Shown here: piece by piece, positions 2,998-38,955 of the stretch | Layout: each line of letters starts with the position of its first letter | Position numbering within the stretch: the stretch's first letter is position 1 | DNA from: Priestia megaterium | GTDB taxonomy: Bacteria; Bacillota; Bacilli; Bacillales; Bacillaceae_H | Direction of reading: 5' to 3' | Assembly: GCF_009497655.1 (NCBI RefSeq) | Contig: NZ_CP023317.1 | Span: 3,191,501-3,255,500 of the forward strand | DNA length: 64,000 nt | Made by a program: the position numbers and the translations under genes | Notes under the pieces: generated by a model | Database searches by the model: none | Told to the model about the DNA's origin: nothing | What the model saw: the letters and a program-made list of their open reading frames with translations, nothing else

Positions 2998-3250
2998 GTG
3001 GGTGGGACAAACGTAGTTTAGTTGAAAAAAGATCCGAACCATAAACCGTTAGGATCTTTTCATTGTGCTGGCGAACGTAAATTTAATCTATGTAGTAGCT
3101 TCTAGCTGTTGGTTGGAGGATAAGACGAAGACTCCTGCGGGAAAAGCGGAAGAAGTGAGACCCCGCAGGAGCGTATGCGACGAGGAGGCTCACCGGCCGC
3201 CCGCGGAAAGCGAAGTCTTGCACGGAAACCAACAGCGGTGTCACAAGCGA
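2998..3250 (+). repeat. Composite structured repeat, copy A
   Basis: Module 1 (2998-3065) is a GGGACAAA...TTGAAAAAAGATCCGAA lead with a short hairpin ending in TTTT. Module 2 (3105-3236) is bounded by a perfect 10-bp helix, GCTGTTGGTT (3105-3114) with AACCAACAGC (3227-3236). Inside are AAGACT/AGTCTT (3128-3133 with 3214-3219), CTCCTGCGGG/CCCGCAGGAG (3132-3141 with 3162-3171) and GTGAG/CTCAC (3155-3159 with 3189-3193). The same order recurs at 38.7 kb, in part at 49.6 kb, and inverted at 55.7 kb. There is no coding capacity or transposase. The segment is much richer in GC than its surroundings. Confidence 0.9.
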
Positions 3251-3317
3251 GCCATACAAGCTCCTTTGTCCCTTTTTTCGTCTTTAGATTGGGTAATTGT
3301 ATGTCTGAATCTCTTTT

Positions 3318-4502
3318 TTAACGAGCCAACAGCTTTTCAGTAACGCGCAAAAACATTTTTACTCCGACTTCAAGCGAGGCTTCATCTACCGTAAACTTCG
3401 GATGATGATGAGGGTATACGATGCCCTGTTCTTCATTTCGCGCTCCAATGTTAAAAAATGCTCCTTCCGTTTCCTGCAGGTAAGCTGAAAAGTCTTCTCC
3501 TCCCATTTTAGGAGACAGCGTCTTTACACGGTCTTTTCCGTATTCTTCAATGGCTGTTTCTTCAATTAACCTTGTAATTTCTTCAGAGTTAATGACAGGG
3601 TGATAGCCTTTTTCATACGTAAACGTGTACTCTGCGCCGTAGGCTTCTGTTAGTCCTTTTACAATCCGGTCAATTTGTGCTGGAACTTTTTCTCGCAGAG
3701 CCGCGTCAAAGCTTCGAACGGTACCGTTCAGCTCCACTTTATCAGGAAGTACGTTGTGCGTAGTTCCTCCGTGAAATTGTGTAACCGATACGACTAATTT
3801 ATCGACTGGATTCGTCGTTCTTGAAACAATGGTTTGAAGGTTCGTCACAATTTGCGCTCCTACAACGATCGCATCAACTGCTTCATGAGGCGCTGCGGCG
3901 TGTCCTCCTTTTCCTTTAATCGATATGTTAAACGTGTCAGGCGAAGCCATCATAGGACCTGCAAGCACGCCGATTTCTCCGACGAGAAGACCAGAATTCA
4001 AATGTGTGCCAATCACGTAATCCACACCTTCCATCAAGCCTTCTTTCACAAGCTCCTGCGCTCCCCCGGGCAGCAGCTCTTCCGCGTGTTGAAAAATCAA
4101 GCGAATTTCTCCTTTAAATTCATTTCTTAACTGAGAAAGCACGGAAGCTACTCCTAGCAAAATAGCCGTGTGACCGTCATGTCCGCATGCATGCATCACG
4201 CCTTTATGAACCGAAGCAAATGCAAACGTGTTTTCTTCTTCAATCGGCAGCGCGTCCATATCCGCTCGAATCGCAACCACTTTTCCCTGCTCTTTTCCTA
4301 TTAATCTAGCCACCACGCTTGTTGGTGTAGGACGCGTAATGATAAAGCTTCCAAACGAACGAAGCGTATCTTCAACAAACTGAGCCGTTCGGTGCTCTTG
4401 AAACGATAATTCAGGATAGCGATGAAAGTGTCTTCTCCATTCAATTACTTGCTTCTTCAAGCTTTCTGTGACGCTGTATTCACCGATTGATTTGACTGTC
4501 AT
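3318..4502 (-). CDS. M20 family amidohydrolase (N-acyl amino acid deacylase), SndA/YxeP-like
   Basis: 394 residues. The ATG at 4502 is chosen over the TTG two codons upstream because AGGGGG then lies 9 nt away. M20 metal-site motifs are present: DMDALPI, HACGHDGHTAILLG, FQHAEELLPGGA, GTHLNSGL and a C-terminal MGGEDFSAYL with YPHHHPKF. The family removes N-acyl groups from amino acids (HipO, AbgB, YxeP). It overlaps the end of the upstream monooxygenase by 23 bp, so the two are translationally coupled. In B. subtilis a monooxygenase and an M20 deacetylase of this kind act on N-acetylated S-alkyl cysteines. By analogy this pair should recover cysteine from such compounds. Confidence 0.88.
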   Translation of the reverse strand: MTVKSIGEYSVTESLKKQVIEWRRHFHRYPELSFQEHRTAQFVEDTLRSFGSFIITRPTPTSVVARLIGKEQGKVVAIRADMDALPIEEENTFAFASVHKGVMHACGHDGHTAILLGVASVLSQLRNEFKGEIRLIFQHAEELLPGGAQELVKEGLMEGVDYVIGTHLNSGLLVGEIGVLAGPMMASPDTFNISIKGKGGHAAAPHEAVDAIVVGAQIVTNLQTIVSRTTNPVDKLVVSVTQFHGGTTHNVLPDKVELNGTVRSFDAALREKVPAQIDRIVKGLTEAYGAEYTFTYEKGYHPVINSEEITRLIEETAIEEYGKDRVKTLSPKMGGEDFSAYLQETEGAFFNIGARNEEQGIVYPHHHPKFTVDEASLEVGVKMFLRVTEKLLAR

Positions 4503-5832
4503 AAACAAATTCCCCCTTTGTTTGACTATATCGATTGGCTGGAACGGAAAGATTTAAATTTCCGCGCAGCGTATCGCTTTCATATGAAGTGTCGTAAAGC
4601 CCACGCTCTTGTAAAATAGGCACCACTTTTTCCACAAACTGATGAAACGTCTCGCTCATAAACGGGCGAAGCACAAATCCATCCGCTGCTTCCTGCTCAT
4701 ACCATTTTTGCATTTCATTCGCTACGTGCTCAGGTGTTCCTGAAAATGGCGAACGCGGCAAAATTGTTTCAAGCGCGACCTCTCTTAACGTTAACTTTCG
4801 AGCAGCCGCCGCTTGTTTAATTTTATTTGTAGTACTTTGAAAAGCATTTGCTCCGATATCTCCCAGCTCTGGAAACGGTGCGCCTACGTCAAATTGCTGA
4901 AAGTCATAATCATCAAAAAAACGAGCTAAATATGTAATGGCATGATTAATTGGAATTAAAGCGGCAAGCTCTCCATATCTTCTTTCTACATCTTCCTCGC
5001 TATCTCCTATAATTAAATCAATACTTGGAAAAATGAGAAGCTCTTCAGGATTTCTCCCATGATTTCTTGCTCTATTTTTCATATCTTGATAGAATGCCTG
5101 CGCTTCTTCTAGTGTATGTGCATTGGTGTAAATGGCATCCGCATTTTCTGCGCCAAATCCTCTTCCTTTTTCTGATGACCCGGCTTGAAACACAACCGGA
5201 TGTCCCTGCTTTGAACGAGCAATATTTAACGGCCCTTGAACTCGAAAGTGCTTGCCTTTAAATCCAAGCGTATGCATTTTCTTTGGATCAAAAAACTGAC
5301 CGGTTTCTTTTTTATAGGTAAAAGCATCATCTTCCCATGAATCCCACAGCCCTTTTACTACGTCGAGATGCTCTTTTGCAATTTCGTATCGTTCGCTGTG
5401 GTGAGGAAGATGTCCTCTGCTGTGATTGCGCGCTGCCCCTTCTTGCGGAGAAGTGACTAAGTTCCATCCTGCTCGCCCGCCGCTGATATGATCAAGAGAC
5501 ATCAGCTGACGAGCGATGGTAAAAGGCTCACTGAAACTTGTTGAAACCGTCCCAACTAGTCCGATGTGACTCGTAGAAGCAGCGAGAGCTGACAGCAGTG
5601 TAATTGGCTCAAAACGATTTAAAAAGTGAGGAATAGACTTTTCAGATATCGCTAATCCATCCGCAATAAAAACAAAGCTGAACAGTCCTTTTTCTAATAT
5701 ACGCGCTTGTTTCTTATAAAACGCAATATTAATGCTCGCATCAGGCTCTACGTCCGGATGTCTCCATCCGTCCGTCGTATTTCCAAGCCCTTTAATATTT
5801 GCTCCTAGCTTCAGCTTTCTTTTTTCACTCAA
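4480..5832 (-). CDS. LLM-class FMN-dependent monooxygenase, NtaA/SnaA/YxeK type
   Basis: 450 residues from the TTG at 5832, which lies 9 nt after AAAGGAGG; an upstream in-frame extension has no such site. Family marks include LKLGANIKGLGNTTDGWRHP at the N-terminus, DHISGGRAGWNLVTS, ARNHSRGHLPHHSERYE, GHPVVFQAGSSEKGRGF and a C-terminal DGFVLRPFMSETFHQFVEKVVPIL. These flavin monooxygenases use FMNH2 from a reductase to cleave C-S or C-N bonds. The coupled M20 deacylase downstream suggests N-acyl S-alkyl cysteine breakdown. Its leader holds a terminator-like hairpin (5861-5894), so expression may be attenuated. Confidence 0.88.
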   Translation of the reverse strand: MSEKRKLKLGANIKGLGNTTDGWRHPDVEPDASINIAFYKKQARILEKGLFSFVFIADGLAISEKSIPHFLNRFEPITLLSALAASTSHIGLVGTVSTSFSEPFTIARQLMSLDHISGGRAGWNLVTSPQEGAARNHSRGHLPHHSERYEIAKEHLDVVKGLWDSWEDDAFTYKKETGQFFDPKKMHTLGFKGKHFRVQGPLNIARSKQGHPVVFQAGSSEKGRGFGAENADAIYTNAHTLEEAQAFYQDMKNRARNHGRNPEELLIFPSIDLIIGDSEEDVERRYGELAALIPINHAITYLARFFDDYDFQQFDVGAPFPELGDIGANAFQSTTNKIKQAAAARKLTLREVALETILPRSPFSGTPEHVANEMQKWYEQEAADGFVLRPFMSETFHQFVEKVVPILQERGLYDTSYESDTLRGNLNLSVPANRYSQTKGEFVYDSQINR

Positions 5833-5860
5833 CGTATACTTCCTCCTTTTTACGACAAAT

Positions 5861-5894
5861 AAAAAAGAGATGCTTTGATTGTTCAAAGCATCTC
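5861..5894 (-). terminator. Terminator-like hairpin in the leader of the NtaA-type gene
   Basis: Minus-strand stem GAGATGCTTTGA / TCAAAGCATCTC with a 4-nt loop followed by TTTTTT. It lies between the promoter (5977-6005) and the start codon (5832), so it would act as an attenuator unless an antiterminator forms. Just upstream is a small CCAG...CTGG hairpin. Confidence 0.75.
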
Positions 5895-5917
5895 CAGTCG
5901 TCTGGTCGATTGTTTTT

Positions 5918-5949
5918 AAATAGCTGTTTATTTAGAGAAAATAGCTGTT
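5918..5949 (-). repeat. Direct repeat in the NtaA-type leader
   Basis: Two copies of AACAGCTATTT (minus strand), at 5918-5928 and 5939-5949, start 21 bp apart, two helical turns. They lie between the promoter and the attenuator-like hairpin. They could be a protein-binding site on DNA or an RNA element. Confidence 0.5.
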
Positions 5950-5974
5950 GACCTCTCATTTATTTAGCTTATTT

Positions 5975-6005
5975 GAATAGTATACTCACTATTCCTATAA
6001 GTCAA
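5975..6005 (-). promoter_or_regulatory. SigA promoter plus inverted repeat for the NtaA-type operon
   Basis: Minus strand: TTGACT (6000-6005), 17-bp spacer, TACTAT (5977-5982). An inverted repeat GAATAGT...ACTATTC (5975-5994) covers the -10 box. The spacer begins TATAGGAATA, a motif also present in the divergent sfnG promoter. Confidence 0.8.
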
Positions 6006-6094
6006 GTTTGCTTTTGGTTCAAATAGATGATTTCTTCCTTCTTTAGTTAAACTTAATTACGATTTCATTTCTTTTAAATTCCTTAAAACTCACT

Positions 6095-6123
6095 TTGACT
6101 ATCGGAATAACCGGTGATATAAC
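6095..6123 (+). promoter_or_regulatory. SigA promoter for sfnG
   Basis: TTGACT (6095-6100), 17-bp spacer, TATAAC (6118-6123). The spacer contains CGGAATAACCGG. The GGAATA is at nearly the same position as in the divergent promoter at 5977-6005 and is reminiscent of CymR-type sulfur control. Confidence 0.8.
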
Positions 6124-6164
6124 TATATGTACATTCAGCATCCATACCGCCTGTCAGGCTACTG

Positions 6165-6208
6165 AAGGCTCTTATTTTCTCTTCAACTTGAAGAGGGATA
6201 AGGGCCTT
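6165..6208 (+). promoter_or_regulatory. Hairpin in the sfnG leader
   Basis: Stem built from AAGGCTCTTAT and CTCTTCAA pairing with TTGAAGAG and ATAAGGGCCTT (small internal loops). No T-run follows, so it is not a terminator. It lies just upstream of a Shine-Dalgarno and the short ORF at 6227-6265. Confidence 0.65.
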
Positions 6209-6226
6209 TGGCATTTAAGGAGGTGA

Positions 6227-6265
6227 ATGTTTTACTCAGCTCATTTATTTTCACTACTTAACTAA
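6227..6265 (+). CDS. Candidate 12-codon leader peptide of sfnG
   Basis: ATG right behind TTTAAGGAGGTGA opens MFYSAHLFSLLN and stops at TAA. That TAA is the first part of the TAAGGAGG ribosome-binding site of sfnG, so a ribosome ending here would sit on the sfnG start region. It contains no Cys and one Met. The placement suggests translational coupling or attenuation; expression is not proven. The Shine-Dalgarno spacing is short (about 3 nt), which lowers confidence. Confidence 0.4.
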   Translation: MFYSAHLFSLLN

Positions 6266-6278
6266 GGAGGCGTTACAT

Positions 6279-7352
6279 ATGAGTTTGCAATTTGCTTATT
6301 GGGCCCCGAACGTAAGCGGAGGCCTTGTCATTTCCAACATTCCTCAAAAAACAGAGTGGTCATTTGAAGCAAACAGCCGGTACGCACAAATTGCCGAGCA
6401 GGTAGGCTTTGATTACGTTCTCTTGCAAACTAGGTTTTTTGCAAGCTACGGCGCTGAAAATCAACTAGAAGCTGCGACTCTTGCTTCTGCACTGGCCGCC
6501 ACTACTAAAAAAATCAACATTATTACAGCAGTTCTTCCGGGGTTATGGCATCCCGGCGTATTTGCTAAAATCATTTCGACTATTGATCATATCAGCAGCG
6601 GGCGCGTCTCCGTGAACGTGGTAAGCGGCTGGTTTAAAGGCGAATTTAACGGCTACGGCGAACCGTGGCTAGATCATGATGAGCGCTACCGCCGTTCTGA
6701 AGAATTTATTAACGTGCTTCGAGAACTTTGGAAAAACGAAACGACCACGTTCAAAGGAGACTTTTACCGATTAAATGACGCACCATTAAAACCAAAGCCT
6801 CTTCAGCCGCCGAAAATATTTCAAGGAGGAAACTCTAAAGCTGCGCGTGAAATGGCAAGCCGGGTATCAGACGTCTATTTCATGAACGGCAACTCGATTG
6901 AAAACTTAAAAAATCAAATTAAAGACGTAAAAGCAAACGCAAACGGCCATGATATTCAATTTGGCGTAAACGGGTTTGTCATTGTCCGTGAAACAGAAGA
7001 AGAAGCAAAACAAGTGCTAAAAGAAATTGTTCTACAAGCAGATAAAGAAGCCGTTGAAGGGTTTGAAAGTCAAGTGAAATTTGCAGGCAAAGCTTCTCCT
7101 CAAGGTGAAGGCATGTGGGCAAACTCTTCGTTTGAAAACTTAGTTCAGTATAATGATGGTTTCCGAACTGGCCTTATCGGAACAGCCGAACAAGTCGCCA
7201 ATCAAATTATCGAACTGAAAAAAATCGGTGTGGATATTATTTTGACAGGCTTTTTACATTATGAAGAAGAAATCAAAACGTTTGGCGAAACCATTATTCC
7301 GCTCGTAAGACAAAAAGAACAGGAACTAAAAGAAAAAGCGGGTGCATTATAA
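6279..7352 (+). CDS. sfnG: FMNH2-dependent dimethylsulfone monooxygenase, SfnG family
   Basis: 357 residues; ATG after TAAGGAGGCGTTACAT. The opening FAYWAPNVSGGLVISNIPQ is the characteristic start of SfnG. Further bacterial luciferase-fold marks are EQVGFDYVLLQTRF, LPGLWHPGVFAKIISTIDHI, NVVSGWFKGEFNGYGEPWLD and IFQGGNSKAAREMA. SfnG converts dimethylsulfone to methanesulfinate with FMNH2 and O2, releasing sulfur for assimilation. It is followed 42 bp later by an acyl-CoA-dehydrogenase-like gene, as in many sulfur-starvation operons. No flavin reductase is visible within the window. Confidence 0.88.
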   Translation: MSLQFAYWAPNVSGGLVISNIPQKTEWSFEANSRYAQIAEQVGFDYVLLQTRFFASYGAENQLEAATLASALAATTKKINIITAVLPGLWHPGVFAKIISTIDHISSGRVSVNVVSGWFKGEFNGYGEPWLDHDERYRRSEEFINVLRELWKNETTTFKGDFYRLNDAPLKPKPLQPPKIFQGGNSKAAREMASRVSDVYFMNGNSIENLKNQIKDVKANANGHDIQFGVNGFVIVRETEEEAKQVLKEIVLQADKEAVEGFESQVKFAGKASPQGEGMWANSSFENLVQYNDGFRTGLIGTAEQVANQIIELKKIGVDIILTGFLHYEEEIKTFGETIIPLVRQKEQELKEKAGAL

Positions 7353-7394
7353 ATAGTTTATCGTAACGAACATTAAAATTTTTGGAGGTATGTT

Positions 7395-8618
7395 ATGTCA
7401 ATCGAAGTTTCTGCACGTCCTGTATACAATCAATCAACGCGCGCTTATTACGCATCTATTCGGGAGAAAATTGCTTCTCTCGTAGATGAAGTGATCCGGC
7501 CTAATGCAGCCCGTACAGATGAAGAAGGCGTTTTTCCACGAGAAAATTTAGAAGCGCTTATTAAAGCAGGCTGGGGAAATATTCTTGTACCAAAAGCATA
7601 CAGCGGCCTAGAACTTGATCACGTGGCTTTTGCGATTGTAGCTGAGGAAATTGCAAAAGCTTGTGCTTCTACTGCTTTAGTTTACGTGATGCATGTCGGA
7701 GCGATTCAAACTATTACGCTGTACGGAAACGACGATCAAAAGAAACGCTGGTTAAAACCAATTGACCAAGGGCTGATTGGTACGTACTCTACAAGTGAAA
7801 AAGCCTCAGGAGGACACTGGTGGTGGTACAACTTCAGTCAAGCGCAGCGAAATGGTGAAGATTATGTAGTTAATGCTGACAAATCGTTTACTACGAGCGC
7901 CGGGCAAGCTGATTTTTATATCGTCCAAACACGCGGTCCTGAAGCACAAGAAGCAACTGATATTAGCTTTTTTATTGTAGACGGAAAATCAGACGGCATC
8001 ACTGCAAGTCCGTGGGAAGCGCTGGGCGTTCGCGGTAATCACAGCGGTCCGATTTCTTATAAAAATGTACACGTGCCAAAAGAAGATCTTCTAGGCAGTG
8101 AAGAAACAGGGAAAGAAATCGTCTTAAACGGCGTTTCCCCTATTTATTTAATTGGCCTTGGTTCTGCTTGGCTTGGCGTAGCGGAACATGCGCTAGAGCT
8201 TGCGGTTAACCATGCAACGCGAACGATTCACCGTGATTTTAATAACCAGCTTAGCGACTATCAAGTCATTCGCCAGCAGATTGCCGAAGCAAAAGTGCTC
8301 ATTGAAAGCACAAAACCATGGCAAATTGACTTGGCAGAACAGCTTGATATTTTACAAGCTGAACAAAAAGCACAAGGTATCCTTACCCTCCCGCTGACTG
8401 AATTTAAAGTGCACGCTTCAGAAGTAGCCAACAAAGCAACGCGAATTGCATTGGATGTAAGCGGCGGATATGGCTATAAAAAAGGCCCTATTGAACGTTT
8501 GTTCCGGGATGCCAGAGCGGGCATTGCTATGGGCCCTTCTAATAATATTGCCAGAGAATGGATCGGAAAGAACCTTGTAGGGCTTCCTCTTGAACTTTGG
8601 ATTAAAGGCGGAGAGTAA
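7395..8618 (+). CDS. Acyl-CoA dehydrogenase-fold sulfur-acquisition oxidoreductase (SfnB/DszC-like)
   Basis: 407 residues; ATG after GGAGGTATGTT. The acyl-CoA dehydrogenase fold shows as an N-terminal helical domain, a middle domain with TYSTSEKASGGHW and a C-terminal GGYGYKKGPIERLFRDARAG. In SfnB/DszC-type members this fold holds FMN and oxygenates sulfur compounds rather than dehydrogenating acyl-CoA. Co-transcription with sfnG points to the same use here. The substrate cannot be read from sequence. A terminator follows the stop. Confidence 0.82.
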   Translation: MSIEVSARPVYNQSTRAYYASIREKIASLVDEVIRPNAARTDEEGVFPRENLEALIKAGWGNILVPKAYSGLELDHVAFAIVAEEIAKACASTALVYVMHVGAIQTITLYGNDDQKKRWLKPIDQGLIGTYSTSEKASGGHWWWYNFSQAQRNGEDYVVNADKSFTTSAGQADFYIVQTRGPEAQEATDISFFIVDGKSDGITASPWEALGVRGNHSGPISYKNVHVPKEDLLGSEETGKEIVLNGVSPIYLIGLGSAWLGVAEHALELAVNHATRTIHRDFNNQLSDYQVIRQQIAEAKVLIESTKPWQIDLAEQLDILQAEQKAQGILTLPLTEFKVHASEVANKATRIALDVSGGYGYKKGPIERLFRDARAGIAMGPSNNIAREWIGKNLVGLPLELWIKGGE

Positions 8619-8626
8619 AGTTTAAT

Positions 8627-8668
8627 ATCATAAAAAAGAGGATCTTTTATAGAGATTCTCTTTTTTAA
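8627..8668. terminator. Terminator after the sfnG operon
   Basis: AAAAAAGAGGATC ... GATTCTCTTTTTT, shared by the convergent oxidoreductase gene at 8665. Confidence 0.8.
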
Positions 8669-9579
8669 TTTTTTAACGTAATGACTACGCTCCCTATTTT
8701 ATGTCCGGTTTCTACATACTCATGAGCTTCTGGCACTTGTTCTAAAGAGTAGCATCTATCAATCACTGATTGGATCTGTCCTTCTTCCATAAGTTTTTTA
8801 AGAAGTAATAAATCTTTCGTCTGCACTTTGGCAATTCCTTGCCCTTCGACCGAAACAAAGCGTCCATTTAAGGCTAACGCTTCCTTGCACTGATTTTTTG
8901 TGATTTTCCCAACGGCATCAAAGATAAGATCGTATCTTTCTTGTTTTTCAGTAAAATCTTCGTTTTGGTAGTCGATGACGCGGTCTGCTCCTAAAGACTT
9001 TACTAGTTCATTATTTTTAGCACTGCACACGCCTGTCACTTCAGCTCCGTAATAGTTAGCAAGCTGTACAGCGGCAGTTCCTACGGCACCTGAAGCACCG
9101 TAGATAAGCACTTTTTGCCCGGCATGAATGTTTCCTTTTCTAAAAAAATGCAGAGCCGTCGTGCCGCCGAAAGAAATAGAGGCGGCTTCTTCATAGGTTA
9201 CATTCTCTGGCTTTACGGCTATTGTCCCCTTTTCTGGTAAGCAGATATATTCCCCATATCCTCCGAACTTCATACCTGTCATTGCAAACAGCTGGTCGCC
9301 TTTTTTGAAACGCGTTACGTTCTTTCCGACTTCCTCTACTTCTCCGGCCAGTTCTACGCCTAGTATTGATTTTCTAGGCTTTCGTAACCCCAAAACTATT
9401 CGCATTGGAAGCCACAATAGCAGTGGACTATTAAAGCTCCTCACTCTGCAGTCGCCCGATGTGACCGTGGTGGCATGAACTTTTATCAGTATTTCATTCT
9501 CTTTTGGAATAGGCTTTTCCACTTCTTGAAGCTGAAGAACATCCGGTTTACCATACTTTGTACATACCATTGCTTTCAT
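8665..9579 (-). CDS. NAD(P)-dependent zinc-free alcohol dehydrogenase/quinone reductase family
   Basis: 304 residues. MDR fold: MKAMVCTKYGKPDVLQLQEV at the N-terminus, GVELAGEVEEVGKNVTRFKKGD, then the nucleotide motif VLIYGASGAVGTAAVQLA and a NAD(P)H-binding C-terminal half ending in the EAHEYVETGHKIGSVVITL signature of quinone-oxidoreductase-like members. Zn-binding cysteines are absent. It would reduce quinones or reactive enones. It is a single gene, with an upstream region facing the BceRS module. Confidence 0.85.
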   Translation of the reverse strand: MKAMVCTKYGKPDVLQLQEVEKPIPKENEILIKVHATTVTSGDCRVRSFNSPLLLWLPMRIVLGLRKPRKSILGVELAGEVEEVGKNVTRFKKGDQLFAMTGMKFGGYGEYICLPEKGTIAVKPENVTYEEAASISFGGTTALHFFRKGNIHAGQKVLIYGASGAVGTAAVQLANYYGAEVTGVCSAKNNELVKSLGADRVIDYQNEDFTEKQERYDLIFDAVGKITKNQCKEALALNGRFVSVEGQGIAKVQTKDLLLLKKLMEEGQIQSVIDRCYSLEQVPEAHEYVETGHKIGSVVITLKN

Positions 9580-9747
9580 AACAGCTCTCCTTTTTCCTTA
9601 GAGTTCAGCGTATGTTTATAAACTATGCTCAGCCAGTGCTATTCTGTACATTTTAAAAAGAAACCCTATGAATCTACTAACATATATGGTAAATAAAAGG
9701 ATATTACTATAAAATGAGTATAAAAACAGAAAGTGTGGTAAGTACGG

Positions 9748-10440
9748 TTGTTTAAACTTCTTTTAATTGAAGATGATGTAACGCTGTTTAACGAACTGAA
9801 AGAGCGGTTGGAGCAATGGTCATATGATGTTTACGGCATCCGTAATTTCAGTAACGTTATGCAGGAGTTTAGCGAGGTAAAACCTGATTTAGTGATTATG
9901 GATATTCAACTGCCGAAGTATGACGGATTCCACTGGTGCAGAATGATTCGCTCTCACTCAAAAATTCCTATTATCTTTCTATCTTCACGAGATCACCCTT
10001 CTGATATGGTGATGTCTATGCAATTTGGAGCCGACGACTTTGTGCAAAAGCCGTTTCATTTTGATGTGCTTGTAGCAAAAATACAGGCCCTTCTCCGCCG
10101 CGTCTATAATTACAGCGTTGAACAAGTAAACCTTCTTTCGTGGCAAGGCGCAACGATCGATTATGAAAAAAATAAAGTATCAACGGAATCTAAAGCTATT
10201 GAGTTAACCAAAAATGAAATCTTTATTTTAAAATGCTTAATACATAAAAAGAATACGATTGTAAGCCGAGATGAGCTGATTAATAGTTTGTGGGAAGATA
10301 AACGGTTTATCAGTGATAATACCCTAACGGTAAACGTCAATCGCCTGCGAAAAAAGTTAGATGAAATTGGACTAGGAACTTTTATTGAAACAAAAGTCGG
10401 TCAAGGCTACGTAGCGATTGAAGAGGAACGCTATGATTAA
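9748..10440 (+). CDS. bceR: BceR-like OmpR-family response regulator
   Basis: 230 residues. Receiver domain with acidic pocket E8-D10, phospho-acceptor D52 in LVIMDIQLP, and K101 in FVQKPF. The C-terminal winged helix has the region ELTKNEIFILKCLIHKKNTIVSRDEL. The start is a TTG with only a weak upstream purine stretch. It overlaps the kinase gene by 8 bp and precedes an ABC transporter of the BceAB type. In this family the regulator activates the transporter promoter when peptide antibiotics such as bacitracin are sensed. The bce naming is by family and context. Confidence 0.85.
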   Translation: MFKLLLIEDDVTLFNELKERLEQWSYDVYGIRNFSNVMQEFSEVKPDLVIMDIQLPKYDGFHWCRMIRSHSKIPIIFLSSRDHPSDMVMSMQFGADDFVQKPFHFDVLVAKIQALLRRVYNYSVEQVNLLSWQGATIDYEKNKVSTESKAIELTKNEIFILKCLIHKKNTIVSRDELINSLWEDKRFISDNTLTVNVNRLRKKLDEIGLGTFIETKVGQGYVAIEEERYD

Positions 10441-11437
10441 ACTCTTTATTCGCGAGCGTCTAAGCTGGATTCTTTTCTTTTTTATGATGCATCTTTTAAT
10501 GCTTTTTATCGCTTATATTGATAGCTCCATTCCGCTGTCTTCGATTCTTTATATCGTGTTTTTATCATCGATTATCTTTCTTATTTTCTGCGTCTTCCGC
10601 TATCAGAAAGAAACGAAATTTTACCAAGGGTTAAAAGATGAAGAGGATTTCTTTGATTCTTCTACTCTTTCTCATCCGCTGCGCCCCTTTGAAAAGATTG
10701 TTCAGCGAAATCTGATGCAACAATTAGAACAGGCGAAAAAAGATGCGGTGCAAACTCAGCTGCACGTGACGCAGGAAAAAGATGAAATGTTAGCTTGGAT
10801 TCACGAAATTAAAACGCCGTTAACTGCAATGCATTTAATAATTGAACGCTTAGAAAATCGAGAAGTTAAAGCAAACTTGACGTTCGAGTGGCTCCGTATT
10901 CACTTTTTACTTGATCAACAGCTGCATCAAAAGCGCATTTTCTTTATCGAAAATGATATGTATATTGAACATCTGGATTTAGAGTCCCTTATTTTCACTG
11001 AAATCAAAACGCTACAAGCTTGGTGTATGCAAAAAAATATTGGGTTTGATGTGGACATACAGGCAGGACGTGTACTGTGTGACGCAAAGTGGCTTTCGTT
11101 TATTATGAGACAGCTCTTAACAAACGCAGTCAAGTACAGTGAAGCATCTGACGTAATGATTAGAAGCTATAAGCACCATGGTCAAGTGTACGTCGAGGTA
11201 AAAGACAGCGGACGCGGCATTTCTCCTCAAGATATGCCGCGCATTTTTGAGAAAGGTTTTACCTCAACCACTCAGCATGAAGACAGCCGTGCCACAGGTA
11301 TGGGTTTGTATCTCGCTCAAAAAGCTGCGCACGCTCTTTCTATTCACATTGGTGTGAAGTCAGTTCTTAACGAAGGCACGACGTTTACGCTTGCCTTTCC
11401 TAAATCAAATGATTTTGTTGATATGAAAAGCATGTGA
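10433..11437 (+). CDS. bceS: BceS-like intramembrane-sensing histidine kinase
   Basis: 334 residues. The ATG at 10433 after GAAGAGGAAC is preferred to a TTG five codons earlier. Two TM helices (about 12-29 and 35-55) with almost no extracellular loop are typical of intramembrane sensors that read the state of their partner ABC transporter. The phospho-acceptor is H124 in WIHEIKTPLTAM. N box (LLTNAVKYS), G1 (VKDSGRGISPQDM) and G2 (GMGLYLAQKAA) are present. The stop codon TGA lies inside the palindrome at 11430-11453. Confidence 0.87.
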   Translation: MIKLFIRERLSWILFFFMMHLLMLFIAYIDSSIPLSSILYIVFLSSIIFLIFCVFRYQKETKFYQGLKDEEDFFDSSTLSHPLRPFEKIVQRNLMQQLEQAKKDAVQTQLHVTQEKDEMLAWIHEIKTPLTAMHLIIERLENREVKANLTFEWLRIHFLLDQQLHQKRIFFIENDMYIEHLDLESLIFTEIKTLQAWCMQKNIGFDVDIQAGRVLCDAKWLSFIMRQLLTNAVKYSEASDVMIRSYKHHGQVYVEVKDSGRGISPQDMPRIFEKGFTSTTQHEDSRATGMGLYLAQKAAHALSIHIGVKSVLNEGTTFTLAFPKSNDFVDMKSM

Positions 11438-11453
11438 CAAAAATGTCACATGC
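11430..11453 (+). promoter_or_regulatory. BceR-type operator
   Basis: Perfect 10-bp inverted repeat GCATGTGACA - AAAA - TGTCACATGC. The core TGACA-N4-TGTCA fits the TnACA-N4-TGTnA pattern known for BceR-like regulators. A -10 box TATAAT (11502-11507) with a poor -35 follows, as expected of an activated promoter for the ABC genes. The first arm overlaps the stop codon of the kinase gene. Confidence 0.75.
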
Positions 11454-11537
11454 TTTCGTCATTTGTTCGGTGAATCAAAGGAAAACGCAAGGCTCTTTTT
11501 TTATAATAAACGTATCAGATCAAAGGAGTGAATACAT

Positions 11538-12299
11538 ATGAACATATTAGAAGCTACTAATATTCATAAAAGCTACGGAAATAAATTTAATAAACAAGAA
11601 GTATTAAAAGGTGTAGATATTACCATTATGAAAGGAGAATTTGTAGGAATTATGGGCGCTTCCGGCTCAGGTAAAACCACGCTTCTGAACGTGCTTTCCT
11701 CGATTGATAAAATCAACGGGGGAACCATCAAAATTGAAGGAAATGAAATTAGCAGAATGAAAGAAAAGCAGTTAGCAAACTTCCGAAAAACACATTTAGG
11801 CTTTATTTTTCAAGACTATAACTTGCTCGATACACTGACAGTCAAAGAAAATATCCTCTTGCCTCTTTCTGTTGTAAAAACTCCTTCAGCAGTAGCTCAC
11901 AAAAAATTTGACGCGCTAGCCAAACAGCTCGGCATCTATGAGCTCAAAGATAAATATCCAAATGAAATTTCGGGCGGACAAAAGCAGCGTACTTCTGCTG
12001 CAAGAGCCTTTATTCATGAGCCAAGTATGATTTTTGCTGACGAACCAACCGGTGCACTTGACTCAAAAGCAGCTAGCGATTTGCTAAACAAACTGACCGA
12101 GCTTAATGACAAAAGAAGCGCAAGTATTGTGATGGTAACGCATGACCCAGTGGCAGCCAGCTACTGCAGTAAAGTGATTTTTATAAAAGACGGACAAATT
12201 TATACGCAGCTGTATAAAGGGGATCAAACGCGAAAAGACTTCTTTGAAGATATTATGAAAACTCAAGGTGTACTAGGCGGAGTGCAAGATGAATATTAA
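11538..12299 (+). CDS. bceA: BceA-like ABC transporter ATPase
   Basis: 253 residues; ATG after AAAGGAGTGAATACAT. Walker [10 protein letters not shown] (40-48), Q-loop region [11 protein letters not shown], signature EISGGQKQR, Walker [14 protein letters not shown] and H-loop MVTHDP are all intact. It belongs to the MacB/LolD-like branch used by peptide detoxification modules. It overlaps the permease start by 11 bp. With the permease it frees lipid-linked cell wall precursors from antibiotics such as bacitracin. Confidence 0.9.
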
Positions 12300-29495: not shown

Positions 29496-29611
29496 CTTAG
29501 CACCTCATTTCCTTATTTCTATAAACCCTGTAACCATTTTATCGTATATTAATTTCCTATTTATTACAATCTTTATCTTCTTTCATGTTTTTATCAAAGA
29601 AATGAAAAAAA

Positions 29612-29657
29612 GTGCCTGCCTCTCGTTCCTTAGTAATTGAGAGACGGGCACTTTTTT
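29612..29657 (-). terminator. Terminator of the GntR gene
   Basis: AAAAAGTGCC and CTCTC pairing with GAGAG and GGGCACTTTTT. Confidence 0.85.
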
Positions 29658-30366: not shown

Positions 30367-30473
30367 AGCTATACCTCTTTACTGAATTTGTCTCAAGAAT
30401 AACACGATTATACCATAATCTAACTCCATCCCATAAACTTAAATTATTTATTGATTATTATTTTATTTGGGTA

Positions 30474-30515
30474 TTGATAAATTGTATCGGTACAATTATA
30501 CTGAAAGCGTATACT
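30474..30515 (+). promoter_or_regulatory. Promoter of bglP-bglH with GntR operator and candidate cre
   Basis: TTGATA (30474-30479), 17-bp spacer, TATACT (30497-30502). The perfect palindrome AATTGTA-TCGG-TACAATT (30480-30497) fills the spacer exactly. TGAAAGCGTATACT (30502-30515) matches the CcpA cre consensus except at the last base and covers the start point. This predicts induction by substrate and catabolite repression. Confidence 0.82.
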
Positions 30516-30534
30516 CAACAAGGGGGTTGAACAT

Positions 30535-33874
<3,340 letters not shown>

Positions 33875-33881
33875 GAAATCA

Positions 33882-33927
33882 GAAAAGCCGGGTTCCTGCG
33901 TGAAGACACAGGAAACCGGCTTTTTTA
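33882..33927 (+). terminator. Terminator of the bgl operon
   Basis: AAAAGCCGGGTTCCTG ... CAGGAAACCGGCTTTTTT. Confidence 0.92.
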
Positions 33928-33951
33928 AATGTAAAAATAAATGCAAATACG

Positions 33952-34101
33952 TTATCTCGGTTTATCTACTAGCTGCGTTTGCGCAATTTCTGTTTGCTTA
34001 ATTCCCGCTCGTTGAATTTCATCCGCAAACGATTCATGCTTCAGCGTTTTAATTACCTTTTCGCTTCCATCTCGAAGAGTATACACTCTAAATTCATACA
34101 T
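33952..34101 (-). CDS. Small acidic/basic soluble protein, 49 residues
   Basis: ATG after AAAGGAGAGGGCAGAGT. The chain begins MYEFRVYTLRDGSEKVIKTL and continues with a helical, charged stretch ending in LVDKPR. Its size, composition and strong ribosome-binding site support a real gene. No family recognised. Confidence 0.7.
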   Translation of the reverse strand: MYEFRVYTLRDGSEKVIKTLKHESFADEIQRAGIKQTEIAQTQLVDKPR

Positions 34102-34256
34102 ACTCTGCCCTCTCCTTTAAGCTATGATTGATGCGATACATTAGATGCGGTCCTATTAAAAGCAACTCATAATAGAGATAACTTTTTCTCTTCTTTACTT
34201 TACCCACTTTTTGGGAAACTAGACAAAGAGATTTGCTCTGACGCGATAAAAGACAC

Positions 34257-34287
34257 ACAAAAAGCCTTTGCGGCAAGCAAAGGCTAA
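34257..34287 (-). terminator. Terminator of the NCS1 gene
   Basis: Minus strand AGCCTTTGC - TTGC - CGCAAAGGCT then TTTTTG. Confidence 0.88.
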
Positions 34288-34302
34288 TATCTATCTCATG
34301 AG

Positions 34303-35700
34303 TTATTGTTCAAAGATGGTTCCTTTTTTGAACTTTGACTGTTTAAAAGCAAATTTCGTTAAAAGAATATACGCAACTCCTGCGACTACTACTCCTATAA
34401 TCCAGCCTAAATCAACTTCAATAAACGCAGCACCTGCACCGATGAGCATCGCAAGCAAAGCGCATGGATTGTAGCCGGAAAATGGCCCTTTTTCTTGATA
34501 CAATTCCTCTACATTCACTTTTTGCTTCCGTAAAATATAGTAATCGACTAGTAAAATAGAAACAATCGGCCCTAAAAAAGCAGAGTAAATCAAAATGAAC
34601 AAACCAAGACCTGCAGCTGATGAATCTTGAACAAGCACCCAAGGGAACGAGCAAAAGGCAAGCAGCCCGGTAATCGTAACCGCTACTTTATAGTTTGCTT
34701 TTGTCAGCAGCGTAATGACATACGTAGGCGGAATAATGTTTGCCACCATGTTTACGGCAATCACGCCAATCACAATAAATGCTGATACAGCAACAGTGAT
34801 ATACGAATTATCGACTACAACCGCGAACGCTTTAACTGGATTGGAAATACCCGTAGCAGAAGCAAGCATTGCTCCGATTGTCAGAACGAATCCGTAGGCT
34901 ACTAGAATCGGTGTAAAGTATAAAAATCCGCGCTTCTTGTCGCTAATGCCTGGCTTTAGCTCTCTGGAGTAATCGGCTGCGCTTAGAAAAATCGCCGCAT
35001 AATTACCCATAAACATCATAATGAAAGAAAAGAACGGAAGTCCCCACGAACCTTTTGTATGTACCCACTTCTCCCCTACTACTTCACTATGAGACGTTAA
35101 AAGAACACCAAATACATACACAAGACCAAGCAATATAATGATTGACGCAAGCATCTCTACCCATTTAACCGCGTGGAAGCTGTACAGCGAAAGAACAATT
35201 TGCAGCAGTTGAATGATAATAAAACAAAGAACAAGATTGTCAAAAGACCCTTTGCTCACAATTTTACCAATTTCGTTTAAAGCTGTACCGCCTGTCCAGC
35301 TTTGGAAACCATACCAAATGATAGCTGGAATACCTCGTAAAAGAGACGAGATGACGGATCCTTTTATTCCAAAAGACATTCGAAGCTGCATCACATACGG
35401 TATACCCGTCTTATAGCCAATTCGATCGTTTAACACAAAAAAAGTAGAAATAATACCAATGGCAATAATGGCTGCCACAAACGTTTGAAAAAGATTTAAT
35501 ACCGCTGTACCCGCAATTACTAAGCTCGCACCAAGCGTCATATTTCCTAAATTAACGCCGTCTCCAATCCACATAAACATATAGGACAGCGGTGTTAGCT
35601 TTCGATCACTTTCCGCTTTTGGCTTTAGTGACGGATCAAGACCCCTATCTTGATGAGAATGTACCTCTTCTATAACGGTACTTGTTGCATTTGTAGACAC
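34303..35700 (-). CDS. NCS1-family nucleobase/allantoin-type permease
   Basis: 465 residues, about twelve TM helices. Family features are the N-terminal LTPLSYMFMWIGDGVNLGNMTLGASLV, LRMSFGIKGSVISSLLRGIPAIIWYGFQSWTGGTALNEI, and AAIFLSAADYSRELKPG. NCS1 carriers import purines, pyrimidines, hydantoins or allantoin with H+ or Na+. B. subtilis PucI is one relative. Substrate not assignable. No catabolic partner gene lies beside it. Confidence 0.88.
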   Translation of the reverse strand: MSTNATSTVIEEVHSHQDRGLDPSLKPKAESDRKLTPLSYMFMWIGDGVNLGNMTLGASLVIAGTAVLNLFQTFVAAIIAIGIISTFFVLNDRIGYKTGIPYVMQLRMSFGIKGSVISSLLRGIPAIIWYGFQSWTGGTALNEIGKIVSKGSFDNLVLCFIIIQLLQIVLSLYSFHAVKWVEMLASIIILLGLVYVFGVLLTSHSEVVGEKWVHTKGSWGLPFFSFIMMFMGNYAAIFLSAADYSRELKPGISDKKRGFLYFTPILVAYGFVLTIGAMLASATGISNPVKAFAVVVDNSYITVAVSAFIVIGVIAVNMVANIIPPTYVITLLTKANYKVAVTITGLLAFCSFPWVLVQDSSAAGLGLFILIYSAFLGPIVSILLVDYYILRKQKVNVEELYQEKGPFSGYNPCALLAMLIGAGAAFIEVDLGWIIGVVVAGVAYILLTKFAFKQSKFKKGTIFEQ

Positions 35701-35752
35701 TATACACTCAACTCCTTTTTTATGGTGATTCCACGCCCTAACCTAACATCAA

Positions 35753-35771
35753 ATGTAAGTTAACTTAACAT
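35753..35771 (-). promoter_or_regulatory. Inverted repeat upstream of the NCS1 gene
   Basis: ATGTAAGTTAACTTAACAT: a core AGTTAACT palindrome with ATGT/ACAT ends, about 55 bp upstream of the start. Confidence 0.4.
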
Positions 35772-35888
35772 GTACATAGTGTATACGAATTGCAGTGTAA
35801 GTTCATCATTATTTATGTGAATTTTCTGATATTAATTTGTGCAACTTGACTAATTGTTGACCTCAGTTCGTAACAAACAAAAGTTGAT

Positions 35889-35926
35889 AATAAAAAATCC
35901 AAGCGCTTACAATAAGCGCTTGGATG
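35889..35926 (-). terminator. Terminator of the excalibur gene
   Basis: Minus strand ATCCAAGCGCTTA ... TAAGCGCTTGGAT then TTTTTT. Confidence 0.9.
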
Positions 35927-35939
35927 AGTCACTCAGTAT

Positions 35940-36203
35940 TTATTTTTCACAGGCAATGTAGTCTTTATCTCGATCTAGCTTTGTATTGGCATCATACAGT
36001 GCTTTTGATACGTACGGTTTGTACTTTGTTTTGCCGCCTTTATTCTTTACATTAGCCGCACGAGCTACGCCGCCTTTGTAGTCTTTGTTTAATTCGGTAC
36101 AGTTTTTGTAAGATTTAGCTGCCGCATCTACGTTTGAAACCATGCCAAAAGATACGCTTGTTAATAAACCGAAAGATAGAACAATTGGAAAAATCTTTTT
36201 CAT
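35940..36203 (-). CDS. Secreted excalibur-domain protein
   Basis: 87 residues from the ATG at 36203, 8 nt after AGGAAG; a longer upstream frame lacks a signal sequence and site. Signal peptide MKKIFPIVLSFGLLTSVSFG... with cleavage near NVDAAA. The mature part is an excalibur domain: YKNCTELNKDYKGGVA and the calcium-loop-like DRDKDYIACEK with two conserved cysteines. The domain is usually found in extracellular nucleases and surface proteins; here it stands alone, as in several Bacillus small secreted proteins. Confidence 0.88.
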   Translation of the reverse strand: MKKIFPIVLSFGLLTSVSFGMVSNVDAAAKSYKNCTELNKDYKGGVARAANVKNKGGKTKYKPYVSKALYDANTKLDRDKDYIACEK

Positions 36204-36304
36204 AAGAGATACTTCCTTCCTATATTTTGTCTCATTAATAATAGAATGTTCTATCAATCTTTTCAATCTTTTTTTTTTACATTTAAACTACTATTATCCA
36301 TTTT

Positions 36305-37237
36305 TTATTTATGAGTAACTTTAAGAGCCTTGACCGCTTGTTTAGCCGCTTCTGCAATCAGTTTATCATGATACTCCGCATCTTTTTCCGTACGATCGGA
36401 AAGGATCGCAAGAACAATTGGATCTCCGTTTGGCGGCCAAAGAATGGCAATATCATTTCGCGTCGCGTAGGAGCCTGCGCCTGTCTTATCGGCTACTTCC
36501 CAGCTTTTTGGCACGCCCGCTCGTATCAAGGCATCCCCTGTCGTATTTCGTTTCATCCAATCCGTTAAAAGTGCACGTTTGTCTTCAGGAAGTGCCTGTC
36601 CAAGTACATACGTTTGAAGGCTTGCAGCAAGTGCTCTTGGTGTACTTGTATCGTGGGTTTCTCCTGGATTCACTTCATTTAAATCGGGCTCAAACCGCTC
36701 AGGCAGCGTTACATCGTCTCCTATGTTTTCTAAAGCTTCTTTAAATCCGTCCGGTCCGCCCAGCTGCTGCAGAATTAAATTCCCTGCCGTATTGTCGCTG
36801 TAGCGAAGCGATGCATCCGCGAGTTCTTTAAGAGTCATGCCTGTATCCACGTGTTTTTCTGTAATAGGGTTATAGTTCACAAGGTCATCGCGCGTATAAA
36901 AGATTCGCTCGTTGAGATCTTCAATTGATTTCTGCTGTAAAAGTGCACCGACAGCAAGCGCTTTATGAGTAGACGTATAAGCAAAACGCTCGTCCGGGTG
37001 ATACGTTACCGTTTTATTTGTACCGGTATCTAATGCATAAATGCCAAGATTCGCATCATATTTTTCTTCAAGCTTAGCAAACTCTCGATCACTTTTAGTT
37101 TCTTGTTTTTGACACTTCACCGTTTCAGCCTGTACTCCGCTGCTTGAAAAGCCTACAACCGCCGCGCATGATAGAGCCAGTGCAGGCATCATTTTTTTAA
37201 GCTTTGAAGTGTAAAACATCTCTTTCCATCTCTTCAT
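36305..37237 (-). CDS. Class A beta-lactamase
   Basis: 310 residues. Sec signal peptide with likely signal peptidase I cleavage after GVQA; LALSC upstream is a poor lipobox. All class A motifs are present: S70-x-x-K as STHK, SDN as YSDN, the omega loop E166 in RFEPDLNE and KTG in DKTGAG. It hydrolyses penicillins in the cell wall space. No BlaI/BlaR1 regulators lie beside it, unlike the inducible B. licheniformis system. It is followed on the same strand by the excalibur gene. Confidence 0.94.
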   Translation of the reverse strand: MKRWKEMFYTSKLKKMMPALALSCAAVVGFSSSGVQAETVKCQKQETKSDREFAKLEEKYDANLGIYALDTGTNKTVTYHPDERFAYTSTHKALAVGALLQQKSIEDLNERIFYTRDDLVNYNPITEKHVDTGMTLKELADASLRYSDNTAGNLILQQLGGPDGFKEALENIGDDVTLPERFEPDLNEVNPGETHDTSTPRALAASLQTYVLGQALPEDKRALLTDWMKRNTTGDALIRAGVPKSWEVADKTGAGSYATRNDIAILWPPNGDPIVLAILSDRTEKDAEYHDKLIAEAAKQAVKALKVTHK

Positions 37238-37408
37238 TACCTTTCAACACCTTTCCAAAAAGTATTTAGTATGTAGTCTCTTAGGTAGAGGTTACCAACA
37301 ATTCTATTTTATCAATTGTTTACTCTCACAAACATGATAGTTTTATCACATTTATATAATAAAGTACCCGATAATGAAGAATAACTAGCATACCACCTAT
37401 TAATAAAT

Positions 37409-37954
37409 TTAAAATACCGGCGGCGTAACGGAAAATAAAATAACGGCTTTCTCATCAAACGGATTGTCCCATTTGTGCTTAAGATGCGAAGGGATTTTGA
37501 CGCTATCTTCTTTTTCTAGCACGTATACTTCCTCGTCCAAATACACTTTAATTTTTCCTTCTAAAACGTATGCCACTTCCTCCCCTTTATGCGCTAAAGG
37601 AGTTTCAGATGAAGACATCATGGGAGGGACTTCCATAATCGCCGTAGCTAGATTTCCAGTAAAATCTGGTGATACTAGCGAATACGTTAACTCTTTTACC
37701 TTCATCGTTTTACGCTCGTTTGACCGTACGACTAAATGAGAGGTATTTATGTCTTCAAGCAAAAAGCTAAAAGTAGGCACGTCGAGGCATTTAGCTAAAA
37801 TCTTAAGCGTTGAAATAGACGGATTAGCTAACCCTCGTTCAATTTGACTTAGCATAGACGGCGTGACATCCGCTAATTTTGCTAATTCACGACTGCTTAG
37901 TCCCTTTTCTTTTCGAAATTTCTCTACTTTTTTTCCAATATCTATGTTTTCCAT
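37409..37954 (-). CDS. XRE-family regulator with cupin domain
   Basis: 181 residues. N-terminal HTH (KVEKFRKEKGLSSRELAKLADVTPSMLSQIERGLANPSISTL), then a linker and a C-terminal cupin_2 domain (APLAHKGEEVAYVLEGKIKVYLDEEVYVLEKEDSVKIP). Such proteins sense small ligands via the cupin. Divergent from the LysE exporter at 38092, which is its likely target, with AT-rich palindromic DNA between. Confidence 0.9.
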   Translation of the reverse strand: MENIDIGKKVEKFRKEKGLSSRELAKLADVTPSMLSQIERGLANPSISTLKILAKCLDVPTFSFLLEDINTSHLVVRSNERKTMKVKELTYSLVSPDFTGNLATAIMEVPPMMSSSETPLAHKGEEVAYVLEGKIKVYLDEEVYVLEKEDSVKIPSHLKHKWDNPFDEKAVILFSVTPPVF

Positions 37955-37986
37955 GATGATTCCTCCGTAAAAGATGTTTAATTATA

Positions 37987-38006
37987 TTTAATTTTATTAA
38001 ATTAAA
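37987..38006. promoter_or_regulatory. Palindrome between XRE-cupin and LysE genes
   Basis: TTTAATTT-TATT-AAATTAAA, within a run of TTTAAT/ATTAAA repeats between the divergent genes. Confidence 0.5.
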
Positions 38007-38091
38007 CTTAATAAACTGAGTTAAGTGTGTTAAATTATATTTAATAAATAAAGTATATTTTAATTTTATCACAGCGAGGAGGAAGAAAAAA

Positions 38092-38709
38092 ATGAATGAC
38101 ATCTTGACCTTTTTGGTTCTTACATTGTTTGTTATTATGAGCCCTGGTATCGATACCGCCCTTATCACGAAACGAACGATGGCAGACGGACAAACGGGCG
38201 GCTATAAAATGGCATTAGGCTTAGCGAGCGGCTCTTTAGTTCATACGCTCGCCGCCACGTTTGGCTTATCGGCTCTTCTCCTTCAGTCAGCTTTGGCATT
38301 TGAAATCGTAAAATACGCAGGAGCCATTTACTTAATGTACTTAGGCATCTCGGCCTTCCTTTCTAAAAAAAGCAATGCATCTTCTTCTGTAAAAGAGGAA
38401 AAGTCAAAAGAAACATCCGCTTTTCGTCAAGGCCTTGTCTCAAATGTACTTAATCCAAAAGTAGCCGTGTTTTTCTTAACTTTTTTACCTCAATTTGTTC
38501 AAAGCGATCAAAACGTAACGCTTCAATTGCTTCTTATGGGAATAACGTATACGATCCTGGCTATCACGTGGTTTTTCGTATTCGTCTTTTTTATTAACTA
38601 TTTACGAAAATGGCTTACAACACCTAGCGTGCAGCGCTTTATGGATAAAGCAACGGGCGTCGTGTTAATCGGGTTTGGATTAAAGCTCGCTTTTGAAAAA
38701 CATAAATAA
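38092..38709 (+). CDS. LysE/RhtB-family amino acid exporter
   Basis: 205 residues, about six TM helices. Family pattern: N-terminal FLVLTLFVIMSPGIDTALITKRTMADGQTGGYKMALGLASGSLVH, YAGAIYLMYLGISAF and a middle loop FRQGLVSNVLNPKVAVFFLTFLPQFVQ. ATG after GCGAGGAGGAAGAAAAAA. Members export lysine, threonine or homoserine lactones. Probably controlled by the divergent XRE-cupin regulator. Confidence 0.9.
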   Translation: MNDILTFLVLTLFVIMSPGIDTALITKRTMADGQTGGYKMALGLASGSLVHTLAATFGLSALLLQSALAFEIVKYAGAIYLMYLGISAFLSKKSNASSSVKEEKSKETSAFRQGLVSNVLNPKVAVFFLTFLPQFVQSDQNVTLQLLLMGITYTILAITWFFVFVFFINYLRKWLTTPSVQRFMDKATGVVLIGFGLKLAFEKHK

Positions 38710-38715
38710 CAAAAA

Positions 38716-38955
38716 TAAGTTAGTTGAAGAAAGTTCCGAACGAGTTTGATTTTTGATGGAGAATCAAACTCGTTCGGATTTTTTTATTAATAGGGTAAAT
38801 GCAGGTGCTTCTAGCCGTTGATTGAAGGGCAAGGCGAAGACTCCTGCAGGAAAAGCGGAATAGATGAGCCCCCGCAGGAGCGCAAGCGACGAGGAGGCTC
38901 ATCGGCCGTCTGCGGAAAGCGAAGTCTTGCACGGAAATCAACAGACGTGTAACAA
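38716..38955 (+). repeat. Composite structured repeat, copy B
   Basis: Module 1 (38716-38790): AGTTAGTTGAAGAAAG lead, then TCCGAACGAGTTTGATT / AATCAAACTCGTTCGGA hairpin and T7, which also terminates the LysE gene. Module 2 (38817-38942): outer helix GTTGATT/AATCAAC; CTCCTGC (38841-38847) with GCAGGAG (38874-38880); GATGAGCC (38863-38870) with GGCTCATC (38896-38903); AAGACT/AGTCTT. Compared with copy A, the outer helix and the GATGAG helix carry paired substitutions that keep pairing. Confidence 0.9.

Follow-up and report, generated by a model that had tools for sequence, protein, structure and literature searches.

A pseudoknotted repeat of the Bacillales is probably the core of a mobile element that replaces intrinsic terminators in Priestia

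What kind of repeat preserves a fold while its sequence changes, and why does it recur behind genes in Priestia megaterium? The question is raised by two copies (A and B) of a structured repeat in the window, i.e., the whole stretch of 64,000 nucleotides of the P. megaterium genome analysed here, in which an initial annotation made from the sequence alone had noted paired base changes and either a pseudoknot or a switch between two folds. The repeat, in our view, is likely to form the core of a non-autonomous mobile element that replaces intrinsic terminators, with a fold that is kept across the order.

The pseudoknotted core and its covariation

The core fold spans about 132-135 nt. It comprises the helices P1 and P2, the hairpin P3, which bears a small side hairpin (P3b), and a further helix, P4, that makes a pseudoknot by pairing the loop of P3 with the 3' side. 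The core of copy A lies on the plus strand at 3100-3238, with a covariance-model score of 130.4 bits and the support of family pair counts and permutation tests, and that of copy B lies on the same strand at 38809-38947 (114.2 bits). Direct reading of the two copies agrees with the initial annotation in all of its coordinates and sequences for them, including the paired changes in two helices. In P1, copy A has GTTGGTT (3108-3114) opposite AACCAAC (3227-3233) and copy B has GTTGATT (38817-38823) opposite AATCAAC (38936-38942); in P4, the GTGAG (3155-3159) and CTCAC (3189-3193) of copy A correspond to GATGAGCC (38863-38870) and GGCTCATC (38896-38903) of copy B, a change from GTGAG/CTCAC to GATGAG/CTCATC. 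The left arm of the latter helix does lie inside the loop of the CTCCTGC/GCAGGAG hairpin. The remaining arms read from the sequence of copy A are those of P2 (3122-3126/3215-3219), P3 (3132-3141/3162-3171) and an extension of P4 (3146-3149/3197-3200).

A covariance model made from 40 aligned copies and containing P1, P2 and P3 only, with P4 left out, matched 128 copies at 97 loci, 65 copies at 64 further loci of the P. megaterium genome and 84 copies at 67 other loci. The initial annotation had held that structure rather than sequence is kept, and had named a lack of covariation over many copies, or chance, as what would speak against this. Among the 128 copies, 277 cells carry both-sided changes as against 65.7 (sd 6.2) after shuffling, with none of 500 shuffles reaching 277, and the covariation score is 0.269 as compared with 0.084 in the shuffles. 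Since kinship among copies inflates shuffle tests, the control that matters most is the sliding of partners by 1-3 columns, upon which pairing falls from 87.3% of cells to 36-41% in the same copies. P4 is paired in 94.1% of cells although the alignment was fitted to P1-P3 and not to P4, and one of its pairs is seen as GC 60, UA 20, CG 14 and AU 2 times. Using conserved anchors, 204 distinct copies could be parsed out of 277, the remainder having missed the pattern or being duplicates; in these, the pairs flanking P4 match in 324 of 408 cases as against 204 (sd 7) with permuted partners, and the P4 extension scores 819 as against 641 (sd 9). The side hairpin P3b has a mean of 2.8 pairs as compared with 1.9 after shuffling, and 41 of 91 of its tetraloops, in a count that includes related copies, are GNRA. 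Thus, the covariation in P1, P2 and P4 and the permutation and shuffle tests of P4, its extension and P3b uphold the claim that it is the structure that is kept, and the shuffle, slid-partner and permutation controls rule out chance as the source of the paired changes. Across the order, compensatory changes maintain the pseudoknotted fold.

Support for P3 (CTCCTGCGGG/CCCGCAGGAG) is weaker and comes mostly from conservation, as this helix is mostly invariant, its both-sided changes are single cells and many of its cells are A-C. RNAalifold, run on a MAFFT alignment of 134 sequences, returned no structure, probably because of ragged ends. When cells with intact neighbours are counted in the alignments A2, A3 and A4, the ratio of G-U to A-C is 57:20 in P2 and P4 together, 30:30 in P1 and 11:112 in P3. 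P2 and P4 hence lean toward a plus-strand RNA and P3 does not; its excess of A-C cells does not fit a plus-strand RNA helix. We therefore keep both readings, a core acting as RNA and a core acting as single-stranded DNA, between which these counts cannot decide. Covariation likewise cannot separate a pseudoknot formed at once from a switch between two folds.

Family size, host range and comparison with known repeats

The core pattern occurs at 66 places in the P. megaterium genome (36 forward, 30 reverse), and the reversed-pattern control at none. Within the order, a narrow form of the pattern is present in 184 of the 397 genomes and in 67 of the 135 genera, at up to 192 places per genome, with no control hit among the matches listed. 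A scan of genome contigs found at least 116 stretches with the core, and the names of the 80 listed are all ones that we take to be Bacillales. The closest named matches among those listed are from Priestia, namely plasmid records and loci of P. aryabhattai. Seventeen plasmid records carry the core, and neither B. cereus nor B. thuringiensis is among their names. A core variant (L067:3949-4128 and L068:3949-4128) is found on plasmids of B. subtilis and Paenibacillus urinalis beside zwf, gnd and glucose-6-phosphate isomerase genes; by eye, the 5' arm of its P3 holds an additional insert, and a Tn3-family transposase lies near the copy in L068. A search of 50,697 phage records gave no match and the viral contigs no exact match to the core pattern, leaving a phage origin of the repeat unsupported.

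The initial annotation had suggested that the repeat may be a known Bacillaceae family. It is indeed widespread in the order, but it matches no model of Rfam 15, and we did not find it described in the open-access literature; subscription literature was scarcely covered and may hold a description. At gathering score, Rfam 15 yields nothing at the copies and, over the whole window, only the bacterial class B RNase P RNA at 45329-45717 (minus strand, 329.9 bits), which lies outside the repeat copies. Over copy A (2900-3400), two sub-threshold matches were obtained, the better with 21.2 bits against a cut-off of 60.

Several repeat families of related bacteria are comparable, each through the portion of its published description at hand. 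The bcr elements of the Bacillus cereus group measure 100-400 bp, bcr1 reaches up to 130 copies, and their mobility has been tied to a TTTAT motif (PMC6542083); bcr1-3 have been called MITE-like (PMC3446304). Like MITEs and bcr1-bcr3, the present repeat is short, non-coding, intergenic and present in many copies. It differs in standing at the terminator sites of relatives and in its pseudoknotted, order-wide core; bcr1, described as confined to the B. cereus group, is compared by description only. The stem-loop families Bhal-1, Efa-1 and Sta-1 (74, 163 and 105 bp, respectively) are likewise structured, mostly intergenic repeats of Firmicutes (PMC2267715), but the descriptions of these, in the part available, mention no terminator replacement; this comparison too is by description only, and identity with Bhal-1 is possible. 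We regard the repeat family as a non-autonomous interspersed repeat, set apart from its nearest families, as these are described, by the pseudoknotted core, the range and the replacement of terminators.

A larger unit at the terminator sites of Priestia

The structured part turned out to be the core of a larger unit that appears to replace terminators, and the window holds a third copy; neither was in the initial annotation. The unit is about 320-340 bp long, is bounded by inverted ends (GAGGCTGGGACA/TGTCTCAACCTC) and contains an embedded terminator. In the alignment of the 66 copies of the P. megaterium genome, AAAAAAAGAGGCTGGGACA stands at the left, followed by the embedded hairpin with its A- and T-runs, the core and, at the right, TGTCTCAACCTCTTTTTT; the left end of the consensus lies about 202 bases before the core pattern. 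As judged by this consensus and by end pairs, copy A is a whole unit (2998-3313, plus strand), with inverted ends at 2998-3009 (GTGGGTGGGACA) and 3302-3313 (TGTCTGAATCTC), a T-run at 3314-3319 and a terminator-like hairpin at 3027-3060 (AAAAGATCC ... GGATCTTTT), read directly at the place where the consensus also has a hairpin. In copy B, direct reading gives an embedded terminator hairpin at 38735-38778 (TCCGAACGAGTTTGATT ... AATCAAACTCGTTCGGA) with a T-run to 38787; inverted ends were not recognised, and its blast match covers only 115-270 of the 329-base unit consensus. The third copy, 259 bp long and with the core mostly missing, lies on the minus strand at about 55592-55850 and was found by the end-pair scan, by blast and by a weak model match at 55650-55723 (E=0.17).

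In an 800-kb sample of the P. megaterium genome, a scan limited to less than 420 bp found end pairs of 105-350 bp, and the core pattern is absent from six of 20. Four of these six retain pieces of the core or its flanks and are read as probable internal deletions, and the other two may equally well be units in which a core was never present. Covariation is absent from the outer inverted ends (570 paired cells as against 569.7 permuted), where pairing at one position occurs in 9 of 56 only. Predicted folds join the outer arms, over 8 or more of 12 bases, in 24 of 29 units with a core, copy A not being one of these. With its short length, many copies, inverted ends and non-coding sequence, the last judged by the lack of a consistent ORF only, the unit answers in these features to the description of a MITE. 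It also answers to that of an intrinsic terminator in that its consensus has, at gene ends, an embedded hairpin with a T-run behind it. Both this hairpin and the outer one are putative sites of transcription termination. With ordinary intrinsic terminators the unit shares the position behind genes, the A-rich and T-rich borders and, through its embedded and outer hairpins, a hairpin with a T-run; it differs from them in being multi-copy, 320-340 bp long and endowed with a conserved pseudoknotted core.

The units follow the orientation of the gene upstream. Among mechanically called ORFs of at least 70 aa, the nearest upstream ORF is on the same strand in 62 of the 66 cores of the P. megaterium genome, and downstream ORFs divide 33 to 33; codirectional contexts comprise 31 with the genes and two against. 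The upstream ORF ends 190-250 bases before the core pattern in 49 of 66. The strand also matches the direction of replication in 52 of 66, assuming an origin near position 1, an agreement that mostly mirrors gene direction; at convergent sites, 21 are with replication and 10 against (p=0.07).

To see what stands at these sites in relatives, two 400-kb blocks each of the P. megaterium genome and of the genomes G014 and G012 of the genus were compared, with 96 near-full copies. The 192 comparisons comprise 86 with an element on the same strand, 13 with one on the opposite strand, 37 without an element, 55 unmapped and one with a long gap. A strict detector found a terminator in 33 of the 37 element-free comparisons, as against 65 of 600 random windows; the remaining four are one coreless element seen twice and one hairpin with a short T-run counted twice. 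Element remnants make up, or occur in, at least three of the 33 (G014 10895, G014 640364 and G012 71976, compared with P. megaterium), and about 30 comparisons show an unrelated native hairpin, the 37 not all being independent sites. For example, the site of copy A has in G012 the unrelated ordinary terminator AAAAAAGAACAAGAACC-AAATA-GGTTCTTGTTCTTTTTTT, that of copy B has in the orthologous position of G012 the ordinary terminator AAAAAAGCTATCTG-TTT-CAGATAGCTTTTTT (comparison rows of G014 168516), and the G014 segment at the site of the third copy has a terminator. In seven triads, the two element-free species share a hairpin with an identity of 0.77-0.98, which places three gains in P. megaterium, two in G014 and two in G012; whatever the tree, at least two of the three lineages show true gains.

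Ordinary terminators behave differently. A control on terminators away from elements, in six directions, gave 1352 comparisons: an element was faced in 35, 516 were unmapped and the other 801 mapped to element-free positions. The median hairpin identities between species are 0.95-0.96, and values below 0.55 were found in just 11 of the 801, which look like truncated intervals or shortened hairpins; ordinary terminator turnover is thereby ruled out. A simple insertion beside the native terminator is ruled out as well, since terminator-like hairpins were met in only 14 of the 156 flanks examined, around 78 units that have both ends (some internally shortened), which is close to the random rate. 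At the junctions, the empty state has a hairpin and is not a simple empty site. Given that element-free sites mostly carry unrelated hairpins and that ordinary terminators are stable, the unit appears to replace terminator hairpins wholesale. This terminator-replacing form is shown only in Priestia.

Beside what is observed, namely the fold, the copy number, the species-specific gains, the native hairpins missing at unit sites and the orientation with the upstream gene, we place the following proposal. The unit would swap in for an ordinary intrinsic terminator hairpin between its A-tract and T-tract, plausibly in one event, and would itself supply the termination of the upstream gene. The fold may then serve as a handle recognised, as RNA or as single-stranded DNA, by an enzyme acting in trans. 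A tentative and rather doubtful extension is that these units represent a class of mobile elements that swap themselves for intrinsic terminators, with dedicated machinery reading the A-tract, hairpin and T-tract and with the pseudoknotted core as its handle.

Spread, decay and candidate movers

Resident copies inform on how the units arrive and on what becomes of them. Of the same-orientation ortholog pairs, 17 of 21 are at least 0.88 identical (range 0.79-0.99), and 209 random between-species pairs have a median identity of 0.82. The 13 opposite-orientation comparisons contain six distinct comparable pairs, of which five have an identity of 0.78-0.83. As these five are as different as random pairs, inversion in place is rejected for them, and the opposite-orientation cases mostly look like independent arrivals; the sixth, 556417 of P. 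megaterium and 568615 of G014 (0.911 identity), may be an inversion. Such apparent independence would also suit a spread with no dedicated mover, in which host repair, through ectopic gene conversion or by switching templates, exchanges hairpins with A- and T-tracts in common and an abundant element wins, as would the clean junctions at A-rich and T-rich borders common to both states. We think this unlikely, given that ordinary hairpins are not swapped among themselves and that the common homology would amount to just a few bases.

Divergence by part was assessed in 14 of the 21 ortholog pairs, picked among the high-identity ones. The core differs at 125 of 1639 positions (7.6%), as compared with 9.9-11.4% in the spacers and the embedded terminator. 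With 10 differences in 176 positions, it is the right inverted end and not the core that has changed least; the left end has 11 in 127. Cores thus decay almost like spacers; once resident they are under weak selection, and spreading is a more probable reason for keeping the fold than a resident role. This bears on the reading of the repeat as a resident functional noncoding RNA or 3'-UTR element, for instance one that protects mRNA 3' ends or regulates. The covariation of its pseudoknotted fold, its position adjoining gene ends and the somewhat slower change of the core than of the spacers between orthologs are what such an element would display, but the near-spacer decay, the difference in occupied sites between close species and the end pairs of P. 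megaterium that lack the core pattern make it decidedly unlikely; moreover, with an embedded terminator between gene and core, the upstream transcript would mostly end without the core.

A mover of the non-autonomous element was sought among known enzymes. Y1_Tnp is found in one of 10 genomes of the genus (G015) and in none of the five with the highest copy numbers (G000, G007, G009, G012 and G014). RVT_1 is present in G000, G010, G012, G014 and G015 and was not found in G007 and G009, which are drafts of 70 and 130 contigs, 99-100% complete, with at least 40 copies each. With Y1_Tnp not found in the five highest-copy genomes and RVT_1 not found in two of them, we reject the Y1 transposase and RVT_1 as current movers in Priestia. 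No autonomous unit with the same ends was seen in the 800-kb sample (below 420 bp) or, by eye, among the genome-wide ends listed. Among 10 ORFs beside cores in six low-copy genomes, nine gave Pfam matches, no recombinase being among these, and the tenth gave no match.

Outside Priestia, inspection of 37 copies by eye shows a common core in differing surroundings. Similar inverted ends occur in L146, L169 and L100, other outer repeats in L124 and L134 and in L105 and L161, and the cores of L102 and L141 have little else in common. In the family at large, tandem direct arrays of cores spaced by about 226-228 bp are seen in L088 (about 1249-1844) and L077 (about 1241-1613). Of the 134 single cores outside Priestia, 99 could be placed and 35 were skipped for short flanks or missing ORFs; those placed comprise, in codirectional contexts, 37 with and 26 against the genes, which is no significant bias (p=0.21), and, beyond these, 26 convergent and 10 divergent. 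Close core pairs outside Priestia are divergent in 25 of 28, the divergent ones (L148, L096, L158, L121, L119 and others) being spaced by 29-305 bp, and the two members are different subtypes in all five pairs compared.

The last arrangement resembles that of BIMEs, which are paired inverted repeats of different subtypes; repeats of the REP/BIME kind are reportedly short palindromes with a GTAG/CGTC tag. Like the REP/BIME systems with RAYT, the repeat is structured and intergenic and forms, outside Priestia, inverted pairs of different subtypes. It differs in its pseudoknotted core of about 135 nt and in that no Y1 transposase was found in the five highest-copy genomes of the genus. Movement of a REP/BIME-like element by a Y1 (RAYT-type) transposase, or of a retroelement, such as a group II intron, by a reverse transcriptase, would explain a structured repeat and, in the former case, the divergent pairs; the distribution of Y1_Tnp and the high-copy drafts in which RVT_1 was not found make both highly improbable.

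A mobile element replacing intrinsic terminators would, if the reading is true, mean that mobile DNA can settle at terminators without harm by assuming their function, and, if the exchange is real, that an element can assume the role of a functional signal at little cost to the host. A large RNA-like fold in 184 of 397 sampled genomes of the order is at present without a family model. Priestia megaterium is a laboratory species, in which direct tests of the mover, of the fold and of its effect on 3' ends would be feasible.
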